Shown here: in pieces, positions 33,035 to 45,860 of the stretch | Layout of the letters: the number at the start of each line of letters is the position of its first letter | How positions within the stretch are numbered: position 1 is the stretch's first letter | Origin: Bacillota bacterium | Lineage (GTDB): Bacteria > Bacillota > Sulfobacillia > DUMF01 | DNA length: 64,000 nucleotides | NCBI GenBank assembly: GCA_012840015.1 | Contig: DUMF01000029.1 | Location: 1-64,000, forward strand | Reading direction: 5' to 3' | Translations under genes and position numbers: made by a program | The notes under the pieces: model-generated | The model's database searches: none | Seen by the model: the letters and a program-made list of their open reading frames with translations, nothing else | What the model was told of the DNA's origin: nothing

Positions 33035-33056
33035 TTGGACCAAATTGGCAAATGAT

Positions 33057-34733
33057 ATGCAGAAGAAGCGACGTTCCGGAGAGGATGGCAAAATGGTTGG
33101 CTTAGGTAAGGCGATCAAGCGGCTACTGCGTCGAGGCGTGAAAGATGGCCAGAGCGATAATCCCATTAAGAAGTTCAGGGGTACTATCCTTTCTAGTTCA
33201 TCCGTGGATGTGCCTTTGAGCAGCGACCTGGAAACTAACCTCCAGCGGCTCAAGTCGATCTTTGACAAGTGTAGTGATGTGGTTTTCCGAGAGTTCGTCT
33301 TCGCCCAGAATGAGCAGGTCAAGCTGGCGCTGATCTACATAGACGGCATGGTCGATAAAGTGCAGGTCAGTGACCAGATCATGCGGGCGCTCGCTCTCGA
33401 AGTAGCGATGGCCACAGGCGGTCAAAAGATAACAAAGGCCCACGCCCTTGAATTCATCAGAGAACGGGGCCTGTGTATAAACCAGATCAGTGAGACTGGT
33501 AAGACTCAAGATGTTATCCACGCTATCCTCTCCGGAGATACCGTCTTGCTGGTAGACGGGCACACAACCGCTATTATCAACGGGGTGAGAGGTTGGGAAG
33601 CACGCGCTATCACCGAGTCCCAGGCCGAGTCCACAGTGCGCGGCCCCCGGGAGTCGTTCGTCGAAACTTTACGGGTCAATACTTCTCTCATAAGGCGGAA
33701 AATAAAGAGCCCTGCCCTGAAGATTGAGACCCTAAGGTTAGGTGAGGTCACGGATACTGATGTGGCTATTGCCTATGTCGAAAGCATCGCCAATGAGAAG
33801 GTCGTAGCGGAGGTCAAGACCCGACTTAAAAAAATCCGGGTTGACGGTATCTTGGAAAGTGGCTATATCGAGGAGCTCATAGAGGACAACCCATGGAGCT
33901 TTTTCCCGACCGTCAACGCCACTGAGAGGCCAGACCGGGTGGCGGGGATGCTGCTCGAGGGCAGGGTCGCGATCCTTGTGGACGGAACCCCCTTTGTCAT
34001 GACGGTACCCAGCCTGTTTGTAGAGTATCTTCAATCTCCGGAGGATTACTACGAGCGGTTCTTATTTGTCTCGGCTGTACGGTTAATCAGGCTCCTTTCC
34101 CTAGTATTGTCACTCGTACTGCCAGGACTGTACATTGCGATAGTCAGTTTCCACCACGAGCTGCTGCCCACTGCGTTACTCCTTAGCGTTGCAGCCCAAC
34201 GGGAGGGAGTTCCCTATCCAGTCTTGGTGGAAATGTTGGTTATGGAAGTGCTCTTTGAAGTCTTGAGGGAGGCCGGGCTCCGACTCCCGCGACCCCTTGG
34301 ACAGGCAATAAGCATCGTGGGTGCTCTGGTAATCGGAGAGGCCGCCGTGCGGGCTGGGCTGGTCGCTGCTGCCACCGTCATCGTGGTAGCGCTTACCGGT
34401 ATTGGATCTTTCGTCCTTTCCTACCGGGTCAGCATTGCCTTCCGGTTGTTGAGATTCGTCTTAATACTCCTATCCGCAGCGCTGGGCCTCATGGGGCTGA
34501 CGAGCGGGATGGCTGTCATTATGATCCACCTGTGCACGCTTCGTTCTTTCGGGATTCCCTACTTGTCCCCAATGATCCCACTAACCACCACGGACCTAAA
34601 GGACGTGGTAGTCCGGGCGCCTTGGTGGGCCATGTTCACCCGTCCAAGGCTGATCGCAGGGCGGCGACAGACTAGATTGGAGCCCGGATTGAAGCCAGCC
34701 TCCCCGGAAGCCCGACCGAAGGTTGAGGGATAA
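33057..34733 (+). CDS. gerA: Spore germination receptor subunit A (GerA/GerBA family)
   Basis: A protein of about 558 residues (GerA family, about 480-550 usual) in the inner spore membrane that with B and C subunits senses germinants. The N-terminal soluble domain has DCS-type blocks (FREFVFAQNEQVKLALIYIDGMVD and VLLVDGHTTAIING, then PRESFVETLRVNTSLIRRKIKSP and FPTVNATERPDRVAGMLLEGRVAIL). It is followed by about five helices, with the conserved PSLFVEYLQSPEDYYERF at the first helix. Start is uncertain: ATG 33057 is used; the TTG at 33045 or the ATG at 33093 (after GGAGAGG) are possible. gerB follows after a few bases. Confidence 0.92.
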   Translation: MQKKRRSGEDGKMVGLGKAIKRLLRRGVKDGQSDNPIKKFRGTILSSSSVDVPLSSDLETNLQRLKSIFDKCSDVVFREFVFAQNEQVKLALIYIDGMVDKVQVSDQIMRALALEVAMATGGQKITKAHALEFIRERGLCINQISETGKTQDVIHAILSGDTVLLVDGHTTAIINGVRGWEARAITESQAESTVRGPRESFVETLRVNTSLIRRKIKSPALKIETLRLGEVTDTDVAIAYVESIANEKVVAEVKTRLKKIRVDGILESGYIEELIEDNPWSFFPTVNATERPDRVAGMLLEGRVAILVDGTPFVMTVPSLFVEYLQSPEDYYERFLFVSAVRLIRLLSLVLSLVLPGLYIAIVSFHHELLPTALLLSVAAQREGVPYPVLVEMLVMEVLFEVLREAGLRLPRPLGQAISIVGALVIGEAAVRAGLVAAATVIVVALTGIGSFVLSYRVSIAFRLLRFVLILLSAALGLMGLTSGMAVIMIHLCTLRSFGIPYLSPMIPLTTTDLKDVVVRAPWWAMFTRPRLIAGRRQTRLEPGLKPASPEARPKVEG

Positions 34734-34738
34734 GTGGC

Positions 34739-35836
34739 ATGCCGGAGAAGGGGAAGATAGACACCAAACAAGCGATTATGTTATCGATATGTCTAATCCT
34801 GCCTACTGCAATGCTCTCCGTACCTGCCGTTATCATTAGACATGCTAGACAGGACGCCTGGATTTCTCTCATTCTTTCTATCTTTATTGGGCTTCTGGTC
34901 GCCCGGCTGATAGTGAGCCTCAGCTTTCGCTTCCCTGATAAAACCTTGTTTCAGTACTCGGAGGAAATTCTCGGCAGAGTGCCGGGAAAGATCGTTGGCC
35001 TTCTCTATCTCTGGTGGGTTCTACACTCAAATGCCATTGCAATCGATGAATTCGCATCCCTACCCTGTGTTGCCCTGATGCCGGACACCCCCTTCGTAGC
35101 TTTCTTCATCATAGCGATCGTTGTGGCGGGCTACGCCGTCCGAAACGGGCTCGAGGTCTTGAGCCGGTATATCGAGTTGATTACGCCTATCGGCCTTGGG
35201 CTAATGGTCTCCTTATTCTGTCTGCTCACGACAAAGGTGAAATTTGAGAGGCTGTTGCCGGTTTTTGATAAGGGCCTAGTCTCAATCGTAAAAGGTGCGG
35301 CTATGCCGTCAGGCTGGATGGGGGAGATCGTGCTCTTTTCAATGTTCATTCCTTACCTGAATAAGCCAAGGGAAGCCTGCAGGGTTGCAGTGCTATCTAT
35401 TCTGATAATCGGCATCTTTATGGTATCAGTAACAGTCGGGATCCTCCTTGTGTTTGGACCTGACGTTTCGTCCAGCTGGATCTTCCCCGTTTTTATGGCA
35501 ATCCGAGCCATTAGCATCGCCAATTTCTTGGAGCGTGTGGAATCTGTGGTCATCGGAATATGGGTATTCATGGGCTTCGCGAAAATCGGGGTGTTGTACT
35601 ACGCCGCGGTTTTGGGTAGCGCCCAGTGGTTGGGGCTCAAAGACTATCGTCCCCTGGTGGCACCGGTTGGGATAGTTCTCCTAGGCCTCGCGTTCCTTTG
35701 CCCCAATATCATAGACCTGCTCGACTTTCTGGCGAGGGCTTTCCCGCCCTATGCTCTTATCGTTTTCGAGCTGGGAATTCCTCTAATACTGCTCGGTGCA
35801 TCGCTTATCAGGGGTAGAAGAGGGGAGAGCAGTTGA
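34739..35836 (+). CDS. gerB: Spore germination receptor subunit B (GerB family permease)
   Basis: A 365-residue integral membrane protein with ten predicted helices of the GerB branch of the amino acid/polyamine/organocation superfamily. It starts KIDTKQAIMLSICLILPTAML and shows the family's SFRFPDKTLFQYSEEILGR region and WMGEIVLFSMFIPYL. It is the likely germinant (amino acid or sugar) binding subunit of the receptor. ATG 34739 comes five bases after the gerA stop, and the stop overlaps the gerC start. Confidence 0.92.
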   Translation: MPEKGKIDTKQAIMLSICLILPTAMLSVPAVIIRHARQDAWISLILSIFIGLLVARLIVSLSFRFPDKTLFQYSEEILGRVPGKIVGLLYLWWVLHSNAIAIDEFASLPCVALMPDTPFVAFFIIAIVVAGYAVRNGLEVLSRYIELITPIGLGLMVSLFCLLTTKVKFERLLPVFDKGLVSIVKGAAMPSGWMGEIVLFSMFIPYLNKPREACRVAVLSILIIGIFMVSVTVGILLVFGPDVSSSWIFPVFMAIRAISIANFLERVESVVIGIWVFMGFAKIGVLYYAAVLGSAQWLGLKDYRPLVAPVGIVLLGLAFLCPNIIDLLDFLARAFPPYALIVFELGIPLILLGASLIRGRRGESS

Positions 35837-37026
35837 TTAAAAAGACTGCTGTGGTTCTAATGCTCGCGGTTCTCAGTAGCCTCCTGGGAGGCTGTTGGAG
35901 CCGTAAGGAGATCTCTGAGTTAGCGATCGTGCTGGGGGTTGGTGTTGACCTCCTGCCAAACGATCAGATCCGGCTATCAGTACAGATCGCCCAGCCCGGC
36001 GCCTTTTACGGTGGTGGTGGAGCTAGGGGAGGAGGGATGCAAACAGCTAGCTGGGCGGTTTCCGCGGAAGGCAAAACTATCGATGAGGCTGCGAGGTACC
36101 TAGCTATGAGAGTTCCCCGGGAAATCTACTGGGGCCATTCCATGATACTGGTAATCGGAGAAAAAATGGCGAGAGAGGGGATAGGGCTAATAGGAGATTT
36201 CTTCAACCGTGAAAAAGAACCCAGGGAAACCATGTGGCTTCTGGTAGCTGAGGGAGAGGCACGGGACGTTCTGGAGTGTGGTTCGATCCTGGAGAAAACA
36301 TCAGCACAGGCTGCTGCATTCTTGACGAGGATGAAGACCGGCTTCGCTGTTGAGCTCAGGGAGTTTGCCGAAATGCTGGCCAGCAAGGGGGTACAGCCGG
36401 TTGCCACCCGAGTCATTGTGAAAGAACAGGGAGCCGTTCCTTGTGCAGCGCAGGAGGGGGTGGCAACGGCTTACAGACAGGTAGAGGTGTCAGGTCTGGC
36501 GATATTCAAGGAGGACAGGCTGGTCGGGTGGCTTGACGACTACGAAACAAGGGGGTTCCTCTGGCTAAAGGGGGAGACTTTCAAAGGTATAATCACTGTG
36601 CCCAGCCCGGGGGATGCGTATAAGGCAGTGTCCCTCCGGCTTAGGCAGGCGCAGACGAAGGTCGTCCCAGAATATGACGGGGAGCGCATCCGGTTTTCCG
36701 TAAAGATCAGGACCGAGGCGGACATGGTGGAACAACAGAGCTTCGAGGACCTGGCCAAACCCGAGAAGATCAAAGCCCTGGAGAGCCTAATGGCGGAAGA
36801 GATAAGGGCAATGGCTACCACTGCGCTGGAGAAAGTCCAGAGAGGGTATGGCGTGGATATCTTTGGCTTTGGCGACGCTTTCCACAGAAAGTATAAGGAA
36901 GACTGGCGAAGGCTGAAGGACCGGTGGGATGAGGAGTTCATCCGTGCGGAGGTCAGCGTCACAGTGGAAGCCCATATACGCGAGATCGGGATGTTAACAA
37001 GACCGGCTTTTTCGCCGGAAGAATAG
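35833..37026 (+). CDS. gerC: Spore germination receptor subunit C (Ger(x)C lipoprotein)
   Basis: A 397-residue lipoprotein. The signal peptide ends LLGGCWSRKEISELAI, with the lipidated Cys near residue 21 followed by the family's W(S/D)RKEI opening. The body shows three alpha/beta domains typical of GerBC (VLGVGVDLLPNDQIRLSVQIAQP, then GHSMILVIGEKMAREG and a C-terminal region with FGDAFHRKYKEDWRRLKDRWDEEF). It anchors to the outer face of the inner spore membrane and completes the A-B-C receptor. TTG 35833 overlaps the gerB stop by four bases (TTGA). Confidence 0.92.
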   Translation: MIKKTAVVLMLAVLSSLLGGCWSRKEISELAIVLGVGVDLLPNDQIRLSVQIAQPGAFYGGGGARGGGMQTASWAVSAEGKTIDEAARYLAMRVPREIYWGHSMILVIGEKMAREGIGLIGDFFNREKEPRETMWLLVAEGEARDVLECGSILEKTSAQAAAFLTRMKTGFAVELREFAEMLASKGVQPVATRVIVKEQGAVPCAAQEGVATAYRQVEVSGLAIFKEDRLVGWLDDYETRGFLWLKGETFKGIITVPSPGDAYKAVSLRLRQAQTKVVPEYDGERIRFSVKIRTEADMVEQQSFEDLAKPEKIKALESLMAEEIRAMATTALEKVQRGYGVDIFGFGDAFHRKYKEDWRRLKDRWDEEFIRAEVSVTVEAHIREIGMLTRPAFSPEE

Positions 37027-39108: not shown

Positions 39109-39509
39109 TTACGCCTTCTTCAGCATAGCCAGAAACAGCCTTCCCGTGCCGGCCTGCGGGTCGTATACCACGTCCTCTGGCAAGAGGTTCTTGGGTACTT
39201 GGCTGCTCACATACCGGTGCGCCTCTTTCCTCGTGATGGCGTGGAGCACCCAGCGGTCGAGGCCGTTTACGGGGTCGAGTTCGCCGGGCCAGTCCCAGGG
39301 ATCCCGGCGCAAAAGGTCGGGGTCGAACGCGTGGTGGAGGTCGCGCATCCTGTCGAGTTTTCTCAGCACGTTCATGCCGCCGACATTGCCGGATCCCACT
39401 GATCTGGGTCTTTCTTCCCCATAAATCGGGACAAAAGGTACGCGGACGGCAGCGATCCCAGCAGGTAGCTGACACCTAAACCCAGTAACATGCGGCCGGG
39501 TATCTTCAT
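39109..39509 (-). pseudogene. PlsY-like acyltransferase N-terminal fragment joined to unknown sequence
   Basis: From ATG 39509 a 45-codon frame reads a PlsY-like first helix (LGVSYLLGSLPSAYLLSRFMG), then must shift frame near 39410 to continue SVGSGNVGGMNVLRKL, the PlsY glycerol-3-phosphate acyltransferase signature GSGNxGxxNVLR. After that the sequence no longer resembles PlsY (it ends DPQAGTGRLFLAMLKKA) and I cannot name it. The ATG overlaps the stop of the RND-TolC gene (ATGA), so the piece was once translated behind it. PlsY needs about 200 residues; this one is broken. Confidence 0.55.
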
Positions 39510-42500
39510 CTAGACATAGCTTCTCCTGTTGTCGACGAGTTTGCAGGTAACGAGAAGCCGTTGCCTTGCACATACGAATACTTGAGCTTCGAAGCGTACC
39601 AGGAGTAAAGGGCGCGCTCCTTTTCGAAACGTGCTCTGGCCGCTGCGTACTCTGCAGCTTTTACTTCCAGAGGTGAGGCTGCGCCATGGGCTAACTTTAC
39701 TCTGGCCGCTCTCAGGGCTTCTTCGGCCTCGAATACCCCTTGAAGGGCGCAATCATACCTTGCCTGTGCTGTCAGCAGTTCTTCGTAGGCAGCATAAACT
39801 TCGTGCATTACCTTGAACTCCGCAGCTTTCACTTCCCAGTCTGCAGCAGTGGAGGCCAGACTTGAATAGTTCTGCAAGAAGCTTGCGACTAGGTCCGGGG
39901 GCAGGCTTGCCAAGATCGAAGAATTGCCCTCGAGGGGGTTTGCCTCTGAACCTTGTGACTGCCGGGCTGCAAACACCTCGTACCGGTTGGCCTTGGCGGT
40001 GCTCGCAGCTTCGGCGAGCTGATCTGCAGAAAGGCCCACCCGTTCGAAGTGGATTGACTCCTCTTCAATCTGGAGGGAAGTGTCAGGAGGTGTGCCCAGC
40101 AGTTCAGCCATGACGAGTTTTGCGCTGCGCAATGCCGATTCGGCCCGGGCCAGGGCCTCCTGGGCTTGGACCAGCTGCAGTTGGGCTGAATACACGTCTT
40201 TCTGGGTGGCCGCGCCCACGCTTGCCATGGTGGAAGTGGCCGAGAACTGCCGCTCGGCCAGTTCGACGCCAAGCTTGGCCAGCTCCGCTGCGGATTGCGC
40301 CTGGAGGCACCCCAGGTATGCCTGCTTCGCACCGAAAGAGATTGATTCGCGGATTGCTTGGAGCCACTTGTCAGCCAGATTCCTGGTTCTTTCCGCAGCC
40401 TCGGCCAAGGCTAGGAGCTGCCCGCGGGCGGCGTCATCTTGACACTGCTCAAGCGCGTTGTCAAGGAAGTTGAGGTAAGCCTCGGCAGCATCCTTCTTAT
40501 ACTTGGCTGCGGAGATCGACGGGTTGTGAGCCAAGGCGTAGTTGACAGCCTCGTCCATCGTGGAAAAGTGGAGCGACATGGACGCCCGCGCAGTTTGCGG
40601 GCGGGAGAACACCAGCGTAACCGCAAGGAAGATTGCAGTTGCCCCCGCCACTCCTTTGAGCTTGGGAGAGCTGCGCCTTAGCGTGAGGGTTCGCGTGAAG
40701 TCGTCCAGAATCAGGTAGAACACTGGCACCACCACCAGCGTGAGTATGGTAGATAACGTCAAACCGCCGATTAGCGTAACGGCAATTGGCACCCTTATCT
40801 CATGGCCCCTACCGGCAGGTATGGCCATCGGGATTAGTCCAAGCACAGTTGTGGTGGTTGTCATGAGTACCGGGCGCAGCCTGGTTGCTGCTGCGGTGAC
40901 GAGCGCGTTTTCCCGGGCCATGCCTTCCCTTCGGAGTTGCATCGTGTAGTCGAGCAGGACTATTCCGTTGTTTACAACCACCCCCGCAAGGGTGATGATC
41001 CCGATCATGGAGGGGATGGAAAGGCTGATCCGCGTAAGAGCAAGCGCAATGAACACCCCGGAGATTGCAAAAGGCACAGTGAGCATTATTACCAGGGGCA
41101 TAGTTAAGCTTTCAAACTGTGCTGCCATTACCATGTACACCAGCACCACTGCCAGCACCATTGCCTTGGACAGTTCCTTGAATGACTCTACCATCATGGA
41201 GGTTGCGCCGCTGACCTCCACGGAGTAACCCTGAGGGAGCTTCATTGACGTGATTGCCTCCTTGACGTCCCTTGAAACGTCACCCAGCGTTCTGCCGTAG
41301 ATCTCCGCTGTGACGCTTACTGTCCTTACCTGGTTTTCCCTTTCAATACTGAGTGGACCAACTCCGTGCTCCAGGGTTGCCAGGGCGCGCAGGGGTACAG
41401 GGGAATCCGATGTGGGTACCACAAGGGGCAGGTATTCCAGGTCGTGGGGATTGAGGCAGTACTCCTGTGGAAAACGTACCCTGACATCCAGCTCCTTGCC
41501 TCCCACTCGGTAACGCGTGGCCACATCCCCCTCTAGCGCTGCCTTGATCGCTGTGCCTACTTGGGCTGAACTGAGCCCAAACGCAGCTGCACGCCGCCGG
41601 TCCACCCTTACCCTGAGTTCGGGTGTGCCTTCGCCGACACTGGTAGTGATCTCCCTGGTACCTGGCACCTTGGAAATGCGTGAAGCGGCATCGCGGGAAA
41701 GTTCGGCAAGCACGCTGGTATCGTCGCCTTTGAATTGTAGCGAAATTGGCTTTCCAAACACGTACTCAGATCCCGCAATTCCACCTTTCATATTGACGCT
41801 TATCGTGGCGCCCGGAATTCTTGAGGCGCGCTGGCGGAGTTGTTCTACAAGGTGCTGCGTGGAAGTAGTTGCGCCTTCTTTGAGCCGGACAGTGAGGCTT
41901 CCCATGTTGGTGCTGGACCTAGAGGAAAGCCTGCCAGAAGTGGCAGCTCCTCCCTCAACTGCGAGGACCATATCTATGTCGGCTCTACTTAACAACTCGC
42001 TTTCCAACTCCCGGACCACCGAGGCAGTACGTTCAAGAGAGGCACCTTCAGGTAACCTGATATCAACGCCTACCAGCCTTTGGTCAATTTGGGGCAGGAA
42101 CTCGAAACCAACCAGGGACAGGGAGAGGACTCCCGCTGACATGAGCGCAATTGCAGCGAGAATGGTGAGGACGCGTTTCGAGATGGCAGCCTGCAGCAAC
42201 AAGCGGTAGCGTTCCTCGAGGGCGCTGAGCCAGGCACGTACCTTCTGGGCTGCGGGCCTTTCTGATGGCCGGAGGTCGAGCCTCGCCGAGCCAAGAGGGA
42301 TGACAGTCATTGCTCCTGCCAAGGACATTGCCAGGGCAAAGGATACTGTGAGGCCAAGCTCTCTGAAGAGCTCTGCAGCAAAACCCTTTATGAAAAGGAT
42401 GGGGAGGAACACTACCACTGTGGTGAGGGTCGAGCCCAGAACTGCGGAGCCCACTTCTCTGGACCCGTCTAGGGCGGCCCTGCCCATGGGCTTGCCCATC

Positions 42501-43750
42501 AGCTGGTGCCTGAAAACGCTTTCGAGCACCACGATGGAGTTGTCCACCAACATTCCGACGCCCAGCGCAAGTCCGCCGATGGAGAGCAGATTCATTGTTA
42601 TCCCTGAAGCGTACATGAAAAAGAAAGTGGCGACGATGGACACTGGCATGGACACCGCAATGATTAGGGTGCTCGTGAGTGACTGCAGGAACAAAAGCAA
42701 CACGAGGGCTGCCAGGAGGCCACCCTGCCAAGCTGTGTTGAAGGTCTCGGTCACTGCGGATTCTATGAACCTTGCCTGGTCTTCAAGTACGACCAGCTTG
42801 ATCCCTGCGGGAAGCTGAGAGCTAAGCTGGTCAAGGGCGCGTCTCACTTGCCTGGTGACCTGCACGGTGTTTGCTCCCGTTTGCTTCTGGACGGAAAGCA
42901 CAACGCTGGGCTGGCCGTCGATCCTCACCAGCTGGTCGGGCTGCTTGTATCCTCGCCTTATTTGAGCGATGTCCCTCAAGAACACCGCTCCCCCTGATTG
43001 GCCACTAGCCCTGGTGGGCAGGATGATGGCGCCGATGTCTTCCACCGTCTGGAACTCGGCAACGCTCCTCACGTAGGCTTTCTTGGAAGCCAGTTCCACA
43101 CTGCCCCCTGCAATGTTTAGGTTCTCGAAGCGAAGGGTTTGGGATACCTGTGAGAGGGAGATGCCGTAACCAGTCAGGCGCGCTGGATCTACCACAACCT
43201 CTACTTCTTCCTTCACGCCGCCCTCTACGTTGACCATGGCCACTCCGTCTACCCTCTCTAGAGCTGGTTGAACGACATCTTTTGCTAGCCTGGTCAGCTC
43301 CAGAAGGTCGTGAGAGCCTGCAAACCCCACTCTCATGACTGGCATAAGGGATGGATCTGCTTTTATGATCAGGGGCTTGTCTGCCTCGGAAGGGAGGAAG
43401 GGAACCACAAGGTCGACCTTGTCCCGGGTATCCCGGAGTGCGGACTCCATGTTGGTTCCCCAGGTAAACTCTGCAACAACAATTGAGGACCCTTCAGCGC
43501 TCACCGATCTGACCCTTGTGACATTGGCTACTGCGCTGACTGCCTGCTCGATTGGCCTGGTCACCATCGTTTCTACTTCGGGGGCACCTGCGCCGCTGTA
43601 CGACGTTGAAACAACCACCATGGGGATTTCGAGCTTGGGGAGGAGGTCTACCGGTATCATTGTCACAGATACGCCGCCCAGTAGCACCACAAAGCAGAGG
43701 AGCACAACCGTGGCAATTGGACGCTTTACTGCAAGCTCAGCTAGAGCCAT
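39506..43750 (-). CDS. RND efflux permease fused to a TolC-like domain
   Basis: A 1414-residue single chain. Residues 1 to about 1040 are a complete RND (AcrB/MdtB-type) inner-membrane pump: first helix RPIATVVLLCFVVLLGGVSV, GLALGVGMLVDNSIVVLE with the proton-relay Asp in TM4, and IITLAGVVVNNGIVLLDY in the second half. A hydrophobic segment like a second signal sequence (AGATAIFLAVTLVFSRPQTARAS) follows at about 1040-1057, then about 355 residues of TolC-family helices (MDEAVNYALAHNPSISAAKYK; QLQLVQAQEALARAESALRSAKLVMAELLG split by short loops). TolC is usually 430-470 residues; the short length and continuous helices suggest the barrel strands are missing. ATG 43750 follows GAGGAGG. It overlaps the adaptor gene by 14 bases. 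Confidence 0.88.
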   Translation of the reverse strand: MALAELAVKRPIATVVLLCFVVLLGGVSVTMIPVDLLPKLEIPMVVVSTSYSGAGAPEVETMVTRPIEQAVSAVANVTRVRSVSAEGSSIVVAEFTWGTNMESALRDTRDKVDLVVPFLPSEADKPLIIKADPSLMPVMRVGFAGSHDLLELTRLAKDVVQPALERVDGVAMVNVEGGVKEEVEVVVDPARLTGYGISLSQVSQTLRFENLNIAGGSVELASKKAYVRSVAEFQTVEDIGAIILPTRASGQSGGAVFLRDIAQIRRGYKQPDQLVRIDGQPSVVLSVQKQTGANTVQVTRQVRRALDQLSSQLPAGIKLVVLEDQARFIESAVTETFNTAWQGGLLAALVLLLFLQSLTSTLIIAVSMPVSIVATFFFMYASGITMNLLSIGGLALGVGMLVDNSIVVLESVFRHQLMGKPMGRAALDGSREVGSAVLGSTLTTVVVFLPILFIKGFAAELFRELGLTVSFALAMSLAGAMTVIPLGSARLDLRPSERPAAQKVRAWLSALEERYRLLLQAAISKRVLTILAAIALMSAGVLSLSLVGFEFLPQIDQRLVGVDIRLPEGASLERTASVVRELESELLSRADIDMVLAVEGGAATSGRLSSRSSTNMGSLTVRLKEGATTSTQHLVEQLRQRASRIPGATISVNMKGGIAGSEYVFGKPISLQFKGDDTSVLAELSRDAASRISKVPGTREITTSVGEGTPELRVRVDRRRAAAFGLSSAQVGTAIKAALEGDVATRYRVGGKELDVRVRFPQEYCLNPHDLEYLPLVVPTSDSPVPLRALATLEHGVGPLSIERENQVRTVSVTAEIYGRTLGDVSRDVKEAITSMKLPQGYSVEVSGATSMMVESFKELSKAMVLAVVLVYMVMAAQFESLTMPLVIMLTVPFAISGVFIALALTRISLSIPSMIGIITLAGVVVNNGIVLLDYTMQLRREGMARENALVTAAATRLRPVLMTTTTTVLGLIPMAIPAGRGHEIRVPIAVTLIGGLTLSTILTLVVVPVFYLILDDFTRTLTLRRSSPKLKGVAGATAIFLAVTLVFSRPQTARASMSLHFSTMDEAVNYALAHNPSISAAKYKKDAAEAYLNFLDNALEQCQDDAARGQLLALAEAAERTRNLADKWLQAIRESISFGAKQAYLGCLQAQSAAELAKLGVELAERQFSATSTMASVGAATQKDVYSAQLQLVQAQEALARAESALRSAKLVMAELLGTPPDTSLQIEEESIHFERVGLSADQLAEAASTAKANRYEVFAARQSQGSEANPLEGNSSILASLPPDLVASFLQNYSSLASTAADWEVKAAEFKVMHEVYAAYEELLTAQARYDCALQGVFEAEEALRAARVKLAHGAASPLEVKAAEYAAARARFEKERALYSWYASKLKYSYVQGNGFSLPANSSTTGEAMSR

Positions 43751-45032
43751 TTGCCTGGTCCTCCTCAATCAGCTCCACAGGCGTGCCGTCTTCCAGGGAG
43801 TTATGACCGGACACCACTAACAGCTCCCGTTCTGCGATCCCAGTGACCACCGCCTGCTTTCCATCAGAAAGCAGTACCGATACACTTTTCTTCCGGGCAA
43901 TTCCCTCCTCCACGGTGAACGCGGTTGCGCGGGAAGGGTCTTGCTGGCTGTAAGCAAGCGCTTCTTCGGGGACGGTTACGCCGCTCTTCATGGCCTCCAC
44001 CAACCAGGCCTCAGCGAACATCCCAGGACGAAGTAGCCTTTGTTCGTTGGGCACCTCGACTCGCACCCTGAACAGTCTGGACTGGGTGCTGGCAGCAGGG
44101 CTTACCCACTTGATCTTGCCTTCTGCACAGTCAATACGGGCCGCTTCCACCTTTAGTTCAACCGGGTCTCCTTGCTTAATCGCTGTAGCAAGGTTTTCCG
44201 GCACGTTGAGGTCCAGGAACAGCGGGTCGGTGCAGGCTACCACCGCCACGGGGGTACCTGCAGCAATCAATTCTCCGGGCTCTCCGCGGGTTTCAAGCAC
44301 GCTCCCGGATACCGGGGATTTCACTTGCGCGTTGGAAAGGGCAATGGAGGCCAGGTCCCGTGCAGCCTCGGCCTGTTTGACCTGAGCCCGGGCTGCGTCG
44401 AGCGTTTCCTGGGAGGCGCCCGCCTTTGCCTGGGCAAGGTGCTGGTATGCCTGCTGGAACTGGGCTTCTGCTACCTTCATCTGGGTTTCGGCTTGCTCAA
44501 GCTGCTGGCGGGAAGCCACCTCTGCGTCGAAAAGTGCCTTTGTGCGGTAGTACGCGGAACGTGCTGCACTCAGCGTTGCATCTGCCTGGGCTACTGCTGC
44601 TTCGAGCTGGGCAAGCTCTTCAGCAGAAGGTCCTTTCTGCGCACGGGCCAAGTTTGCCTGGGCTGCCTGCAAGGCTGCTTCGGCCTGACGAAGTTGTGCT
44701 TCAAGCTCCCTCGTTTCGAGGGTTGCGATCAGGCTCCCCTTATTGACTTGGGAACCCACTTCGACGAAAACCCGGTCCAGCCTGCCGGCTATTTTGGGGC
44801 CCACGGCAACTGTTTGGGACGGGGTGAGTACGCCAAACAGCCTGGCTTTCTTCTGCACGGTGCCGTTTTTTGCTCGCACGCATTTCACCGGCACTGCTTT
44901 GGGTGGGCTGGAGCTCTGTGGCTGTTGGTTGCCCGAGGTCAGCGCTTCCCTACTGAAGAGCCACAGGCAAGCTGCAACTGCACACGCTATGGCTGCCGTA
45001 ACCGTCCAGTGACGTCTGAGCTTAACATTCAA
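43737..45032 (-). CDS. RND efflux periplasmic adaptor (membrane fusion protein)
   Basis: A 431-residue HlyD/AcrA-type adaptor. N-terminal membrane anchor (VTAAIACAVAACLWLFSREAL), then the first lipoyl half (KARLFGVLTPSQTVAVGPKIAGRLDRVFVEVGSQVNKG), a long Ala/Gln-rich coiled coil (about residues 110-230), the second lipoyl half (ARDLASIALSNAQVKSPVSGSVLETRGEPGELIAAG), a beta-barrel and a membrane-proximal domain. It links the RND pump to its exit channel; here that channel seems to be fused to the pump itself. The stop lies 14 bases inside the pump gene. Confidence 0.92.
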   Translation of the reverse strand: MNVKLRRHWTVTAAIACAVAACLWLFSREALTSGNQQPQSSSPPKAVPVKCVRAKNGTVQKKARLFGVLTPSQTVAVGPKIAGRLDRVFVEVGSQVNKGSLIATLETRELEAQLRQAEAALQAAQANLARAQKGPSAEELAQLEAAVAQADATLSAARSAYYRTKALFDAEVASRQQLEQAETQMKVAEAQFQQAYQHLAQAKAGASQETLDAARAQVKQAEAARDLASIALSNAQVKSPVSGSVLETRGEPGELIAAGTPVAVVACTDPLFLDLNVPENLATAIKQGDPVELKVEAARIDCAEGKIKWVSPAASTQSRLFRVRVEVPNEQRLLRPGMFAEAWLVEAMKSGVTVPEEALAYSQQDPSRATAFTVEEGIARKKSVSVLLSDGKQAVVTGIAERELLVVSGHNSLEDGTPVELIEEDQANGSS

Positions 45033-45264: not shown

Positions 45265-45860
45265 CTTACGGTAAAACGCTTAACCGGAAGATTTAAGCCA
45301 TCTAAGAAAAGATACATGCGTTGTCCTTAATGGGCTACTCCGGCCACTTAAGCATTTCTTGGGTTAACTCCTTGTTAATCTTAAAGATGGTGCCGGCGGA
45401 ATAGCCTTTGCCAGCAGTTCGCTGGTGATCTTTTTCATTTTCCTGCTGCTGATTCCCCCAATGAAAAGGTCGATGATCTGCTTGTCGATTCTCTCCTCTC
45501 TCCGCTTATAGTGAGGAAGAACCTTTGATTCAAATTCACCGCTGCGGTCCCCTTGACACCTGAATGTCTTCGATCATGCCAAAGCGAATGAGGAGATCCC
45601 GTTCGTAATATCCGCTGCGGTTGTTACCTCTTTTGCCGTTTCCCCTCTGGTACTGCTCATACCCCAGAAATTCGGTCAGTTCTTGCTTTATCGCTTCTTC
45701 AAGGGCATGACTTGACAGACTGCCTGACATAGAGAGCCAGATCATTGATGAAAATCTCCTGCCCCCACTTCTCTTTGACCTCGACATCCTGCAGCTCTTC
45801 TGGTAGCCTGATTTTGAAAGGTGTATCCTCTTTTTGGTTATTATGGAAATACCCGTCTAT
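45265..45860 (-). pseudogene. IS256-family transposase relic (N-terminal third)
   Basis: A minus-strand series of frames matches the start of an IS256/mutator-type transposase: LGYEQYQRGNGKRGNNRSGYYERD, then IRFGMIEDIQVSRGP, KVLPHYKRREERIDKQIIDLF, GYSAGTIFKINKELTQEM, and a final YLFLDGLNLPVKRF, which contains the first catalytic Asp. Several frameshifts break it and the other catalytic residues are missing. Neighbouring 45033-45264 and 45861-46211 hold no supported gene; a 7-bp hairpin GGGAGCA/TGCTCCC lies at 45101-45124. Confidence 0.75.

Follow-up and report, generated by a model that had tools for sequence, protein, structure and literature searches.

An RND permease joined in one frame to a TolC-like tube without barrel hairpins in a Bacillota bacterium that looks monoderm: a candidate polyprotein with an internal signal peptide

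How can a TolC-like tube work, and what holds it, when it shares a reading frame with its RND permease in a cell that appears to have no outer membrane? The question is raised by a locus in a 64,000-nt stretch of contig DUMF01000029.1 (assembly GCA_012840015.1; hereafter the window) from a Bacillota bacterium. A frame at 39506-43768 on the minus strand is open for 1420 codons, counted from the first TTG; the ATG at 43750 is the natural start and gives an RND-TolC fusion gene (39506..43750, minus strand) of 1414 codons that contain no stop. A first-pass annotation of this DNA had described a 1414-residue protein made of a full RND permease, a second signal-like segment and about 355 residues of TolC-family helices, and each element is recovered here. 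The Pfam ACR_tran profile matches residues 4-1015 (40706..43741, minus strand) as a complete RND permease with an E value of 1e-252. A Sec-type signal-peptide-like segment with a basic stretch, a hydrophobic core and an AXA-type site occupies residues 1025-1056 (40583..40678, minus strand), and residues 1057-1414 (39509..40582, minus strand) form a TolC-like part of 358 aa with a helical model and TolC-family Foldseek matches.

Pfam OEP (PF02321) matches this C-terminal part twice, both times over the cut-off, at 40094..40405 (minus strand, profile positions 84-187) and 39572..39847 (minus strand, profile positions 93-184). The matches cover approximately positions 84-187 of the 187 in the profile, corresponding to the helical hairpin, and the barrel part that precedes it is missing. 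Judged by these profiles, the two OEP repeats with helical hairpins place the domain among the outer membrane factors. The domain is divergent, with an OEP score of 64 bits, and a sequence search of the PDB with the TolC part returned no match. The fusion is the sole OEP protein of its genome and also its only full-length RND permease of the HAE type (PF00873); the other ACR_tran match in the genome is partial and lies in a 426-aa frame that is probably SecD.

As the first-pass annotation had also noted, the adaptor gene overlaps the fusion. It lies upstream (43737..45032, minus strand), shares 14 bp with the fusion, and encodes a 431-aa protein of the periplasmic-adaptor type (HlyD/RND_mfp) scoring 203.6 bits for RND_mfp TIGR01730 against a cut-off of 94.9, as predicted for the co-encoded adaptor of a tripartite RND efflux system. 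The window contains spore-germination genes (GerA, Spore_permease); their operon at 33045-37026 on the plus strand, which also includes a following GerC-like gene, stands beside the pump locus.

Equivalents of AcrB D407, R971 and T978 are kept in the window permease, and the D408 and K940 positions are occupied by N. The K940 position is N in every Bacillota and Omnitrophota RND that we read across both sites, fused or unfused, and D408 is likewise N in these proteins except in G137, which has S. D407, R971 and T978 are unchanged in them, and the proton relay has thus changed at K940 and D408 as a pair.

The absence of barrel strands, suspected in the first-pass annotation, was examined by alignment with E. 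coli TolC (NC_000913.3) and by structure prediction of the TolC part as a single chain. The NP-to-AYF span, named for the motifs at its two ends, measures 69 residues in the window protein vs 99 in TolC, and the corresponding span of the second repeat 67 vs 112; the barrel hairpins of TolC fall inside these two shortened spans. AlphaFold2 models of the TolC-like parts of the window protein and of a second fusion from the same class (G012; see below) were built as single chains from shallow two-sequence alignments. The window model contains only helices, save two 4-residue strands, and is weak in the second repeat. Its helices 63-88 and 92-163 are joined by a three-residue turn (model residues 89-91; residues 1103-1105, 40436..40444, minus strand) where the first barrel hairpin interrupts the two helices in TolC. 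The G012 model (locus L064; pLDDT 77, pTM 0.69) displays both repeats clearly, with helices 34-58, 74-147 and 153-188 followed by 222-241, 249-314 and 320-356, and its strands are limited to two of 3 residues. In Foldseek searches of the PDB, the first 44 ranks are all TolC-family channels for both models, with TM-scores of up to 0.67 for G012 and 0.30-0.40 for the window; the low scores of the latter leave its global shape uncertain, but not its assignment to the TolC family. The models thus predict a TolC-family stave devoid of beta-barrel strands, in line with the shortened spans.

Loss of the barrel is matched by the envelope genes of the host. Omp85 gives no match in the source genome at E up to 1 and none in the 154 genomes of its class, this one included, at E up to 0.001; LptD_N is absent from all five class genomes tested, among them the source genome and G012. 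SLH domains, of the S-layer type, match 13 times in the source genome and are present in 112/154 class genomes, and OEP proteins occur in 32/154. By these markers the host looks monoderm, and neither it nor the other class genomes tested appear to carry the Omp85/BamA and LPS transport genes of a diderm envelope, which favours the earlier suggestion of a wall-crossing pump without an outer membrane. Assignment of the host class to Limnochordia was rejected, since Limnochordia are reported to be diderm (PMC11456536) and the class genomes lack Omp85. It is extremely improbable that the cell is a cryptic diderm with the tube as an ordinary outer-membrane factor: some relatives do stain Gram-negative and have layered walls, as in Symbiobacterium (PMC11448272), but the Omp85 and LptD_N counts and the missing barrel strands all speak against it. 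Symbiobacterium thermophilum, which stains Gram-negative, is reported to have no Lpx, Lpt or BamA genes (PMC11448272).

The first-pass annotation had raised diderm ancestry as another meaning of the fusion. Barrel loss does fit a diderm TolC as ancestor; being fused does not in itself mark ancestry, because barrel-less TolC-like proteins are spread across the host class, fused or unfused. In other members of the class the order is adaptor, RND and then a barrel-less TolC-like protein encoded by a gene of its own. This conserved order also bears on whether the TolC-like part forms a channel at all. It could instead serve exported substrates or S-layer proteins as an extracellular coiled-coil scaffold or as a folding aid, leaving the RND permease to work alone with the adaptor as proposed for Gram-positive adaptors, for whose hairpins foldase-like roles have been discussed (PMC4446572). 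The divergence of the window domain and the lack of an outer membrane to cross lend this idea some weight, but both repeats and the stave fold are kept and the adaptor-RND-TolC order is conserved, making it improbable.

Could the open frame simply be an error? The locus shows some disorder. The start of a plsY-like gene (MKIPGRMLLGLGVSYLLGSLPSAYLL) at 39370-39507 (minus strand) overlaps the end of the fusion, then suffers a frameshift ahead of the RSVGSGNVGGMNVLRK motif and runs into unrelated sequence, representing either a decayed gene or an assembly indel; a Mutator/IS256-type transposase fragment lies upstream of the adaptor gene at 45536-45787 (minus strand). These features, and the reading of a single assembly of the source organism, are what one would cite for a decaying locus, or for a sequencing or assembly error that merged two genes. 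On the other side, codon-position GC is continuous across the permease/tube junction, 1414 codons pass without a stop, the G012 fusion shares layout and length, and fusions are conserved in another class. An artefact is therefore very improbable, and the sequencing error at 40.6 kb, which the first-pass annotation listed among the findings that would overturn its reading, is refuted by the recurrence of fusions elsewhere, at least some of them independent.

These further fusions came from the proposed search for RND-TolC fusions in Bacillota, which yielded G012 and eight carriers in a diderm class. In G012 (same class as the window; JAUYEF010000012.1, L045/L064), the adaptor gene overlaps a fusion of 1420 aa that is laid out like the one in the window. 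A contig scan with the two monoderm fusions returned the second fusion together with Omnitrophota and Gemmatimonadota RNDs, and nothing else. In the diderm Bacillota class, open frames of 1481-1509 aa holding a matched OMF part occur in 8/29 genomes (G533, G434, G215, G547, G496, G455, G515 and G364). The full RND-OMF frame was read in the first three, and two further genomes (G411 and G287) carry fusion pieces that end at contig ends. Barrel spans are full length in the fusions of G533, G434, G215 and G411 (93-96 and 124-129 residues), full OEP matches were confirmed in loci L075 and L106, and the adaptor gene lies just upstream of the fusion in the two loci read (L075 and L076). LptD_N is found in all eight carriers of full-length fusions and Omp85 in 9/9 genomes tested from family f67. 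A 1259-aa frame with a weak OEP match in G005 was rejected as a fusion; it looks like an FtsX-like permease with a coiled coil.

The architecture extends beyond Bacillota and is already present in databases under an RND name, as WP_139926179.1 from Hymenobacter sp. DG01, a 1450-aa protein of the CusA/CzcA family with ACR_tran and OEP, attests. The other Bacteroidota metal pumps examined have a separate TolC gene. On several Bacteroidota plasmids (L140, L143 and L144), a CusA-type RND is annotated as two adjoining genes, with products of about 430-460 and 630-647 aa, so that a split permease lies beside a separate TolC. Among the best-scoring 5000 plasmid records, no full-length HAE-type fusion was found at 80% coverage.

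A maximum-likelihood tree of RND parts that includes six Bacillota fusions, built without the Hymenobacter protein, rejects a single clade of all six (AU p = 1.7e-4) and does not reject a single clade of the window and G012 fusions (p = 0.16). One common origin for all Bacillota fusions is thereby rejected, and at least two fusion origins exist among the tested Bacillota permeases. The Hymenobacter metal pump is likely an additional independent fusion, because it belongs to a different RND subfamily (heavy-metal).

What the fusions nearly always share is the junction. Between the permease and OEP parts the window protein reads RRSSPKLKGVAGATAIFLAVTLVFSRPQTARA followed by S: the basic stretch RRSSPKLKG comes first, then a hydrophobic segment at residues 1031-1049 and an AXA-type site, with a candidate cut after TARA (between A1056 and S1057). 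Signal peptides were called by visual inspection and hydropathy, and the junctions of G496 and G364, being unparsed, were left out of the count. A-x-A is found in 8/11 junctions and V-x-A in 2/11, in each case a short way past the hydrophobic core, which a basic stretch precedes; G455 is ambiguous. On this reading of the motif, the window fusion, like nearly all the others, has a signal peptide inside the chain that ends in an AXA-type site, as anticipated for a signal-peptidase polyprotein. Three diderm fusions have no ATG, GTG or TTG between TM12 and the hydrophobic core, so translation of a secreted tube is not expected to start on its own there. In the window, a single in-frame GTG lies between permease and tube with AAAGGAG directly abutting, too close for normal Shine-Dalgarno spacing, and internal initiation there is unlikely.

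Would the two parts then stay joined? A tube with a barrel has to arrive at the outer membrane, and tip-to-tip models leave RND and OMF without contact (PMC4446572); about ten residues of tether are too few to span that gap. Together with the AXA-type site being kept, full-barrel fusions included, this makes two cleaved proteins the likelier working form. The barrelled fusions point to cleavage by signal peptidase I, a reading that homology would extend to the window protein. The single-chain pump proposed in the first-pass annotation is thus not supported as the working form, given the AXA-type internal signal peptide in nearly every fusion. For the window protein an uncut form nevertheless remains a live rival, since nothing else anchors the tube: a 13-helix permease would carry the C-terminal tube tethered to the plasma membrane, with the tether replacing an outer-membrane anchor. 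The single frame has no good internal start, the basic n-region and hydrophobic core could act as a 13th transmembrane helix, no outer membrane is there to hold the tube, and a kept tether could be an advantage in a monoderm, where just the adaptor, the wall or the S-layer holds a cut tube. Against this, the window and G012 fusions share the AXA-type site with the barrelled ones, and the same short tether falls short of a tube that, in the known assembly, sits atop RND and adaptor. It is therefore unlikely that a monoderm has a working single-chain RND-conduit pump, with the 13th helix anchoring a wall-crossing helical tube; if true, such a pump would need no outer membrane and its tube no barrel, a new envelope architecture for RND export.

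In the reading we favour, with a probability of about 0.58, a tripartite RND pump has become suited to a cell that lacks an outer membrane, and the fusion is its polyprotein, born from an operon. A single translation product would fix permease and tube at 1:1, in keeping with the 3:3 stoichiometry of RND pumps. The signal peptide within the chain would insert as a 13th helix and place the tube outside, where signal peptidase I could cut after TARA and free it, leaving equal amounts of the two trimeric partners. Three staves would assemble into an alpha-barrel of 12 helices, which would dock on the adaptor and guide substrates through the wall towards the S-layer, not an outer membrane.

Like AcrAB-TolC of E. 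coli, this system comprises an adaptor, an RND permease and a two-repeat TolC-family stave with a fold match to TolC (1ek9). It differs in that permease and tube share one frame, the barrel hairpins are gone, the genome has no Omp85 or LptD_N, and N replaces both D408 and K940 (TM4/TM10). TolC-like proteins of monoderm Firmicutes are known from operons with pump partners where BAM is absent; a C. difficile homologue has been modelled with an omission in its barrel, and a location in the S-layer has been hypothesised for such proteins (PMC8809574). The window protein resembles these in being a TolC-family protein in an operon with pump partners, in a genome without Omp85, but those proteins are separate and secreted, whereas here the tube continues the chain of the RND permease, with an internal signal peptide at the join. 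In monoderm Desulfotomaculum reducens, the TolC-family OEP protein Dred_3141 was found among surface proteins (PMC4137172). The diderm Bacillota fusions share the HAE-type RND, internal signal peptide and OMF with the window fusion; they differ by full-length barrel spans, LptD_N and Omp85, and a separate origin. WP_139926179.1 likewise joins ACR_tran to OEP through an internal signal peptide (there PARA before Q), but it is a heavy-metal RND of a diderm Bacteroidota with its adaptor gene downstream.

Our literature search for RND-TolC fusions found no paper, and none seems to have been described with a barrel-less tube in a monoderm setting. The novelty lies in three points: the fusion occurs where barrel and Omp85 are both missing, such fusions recur, and the internal signal peptide is retained. 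Recurrent fusions that nearly always keep an internal signal peptide suggest that a polyprotein may serve to supply the subunits in equal amounts, a simple and testable rule. With the barrel gone and the tube kept, one gene gives a handle on a TolC-like tube without an outer membrane, and how such a tube works and is held, a question arising from earlier work (PMC8809574), may be approached through the fusion gene.
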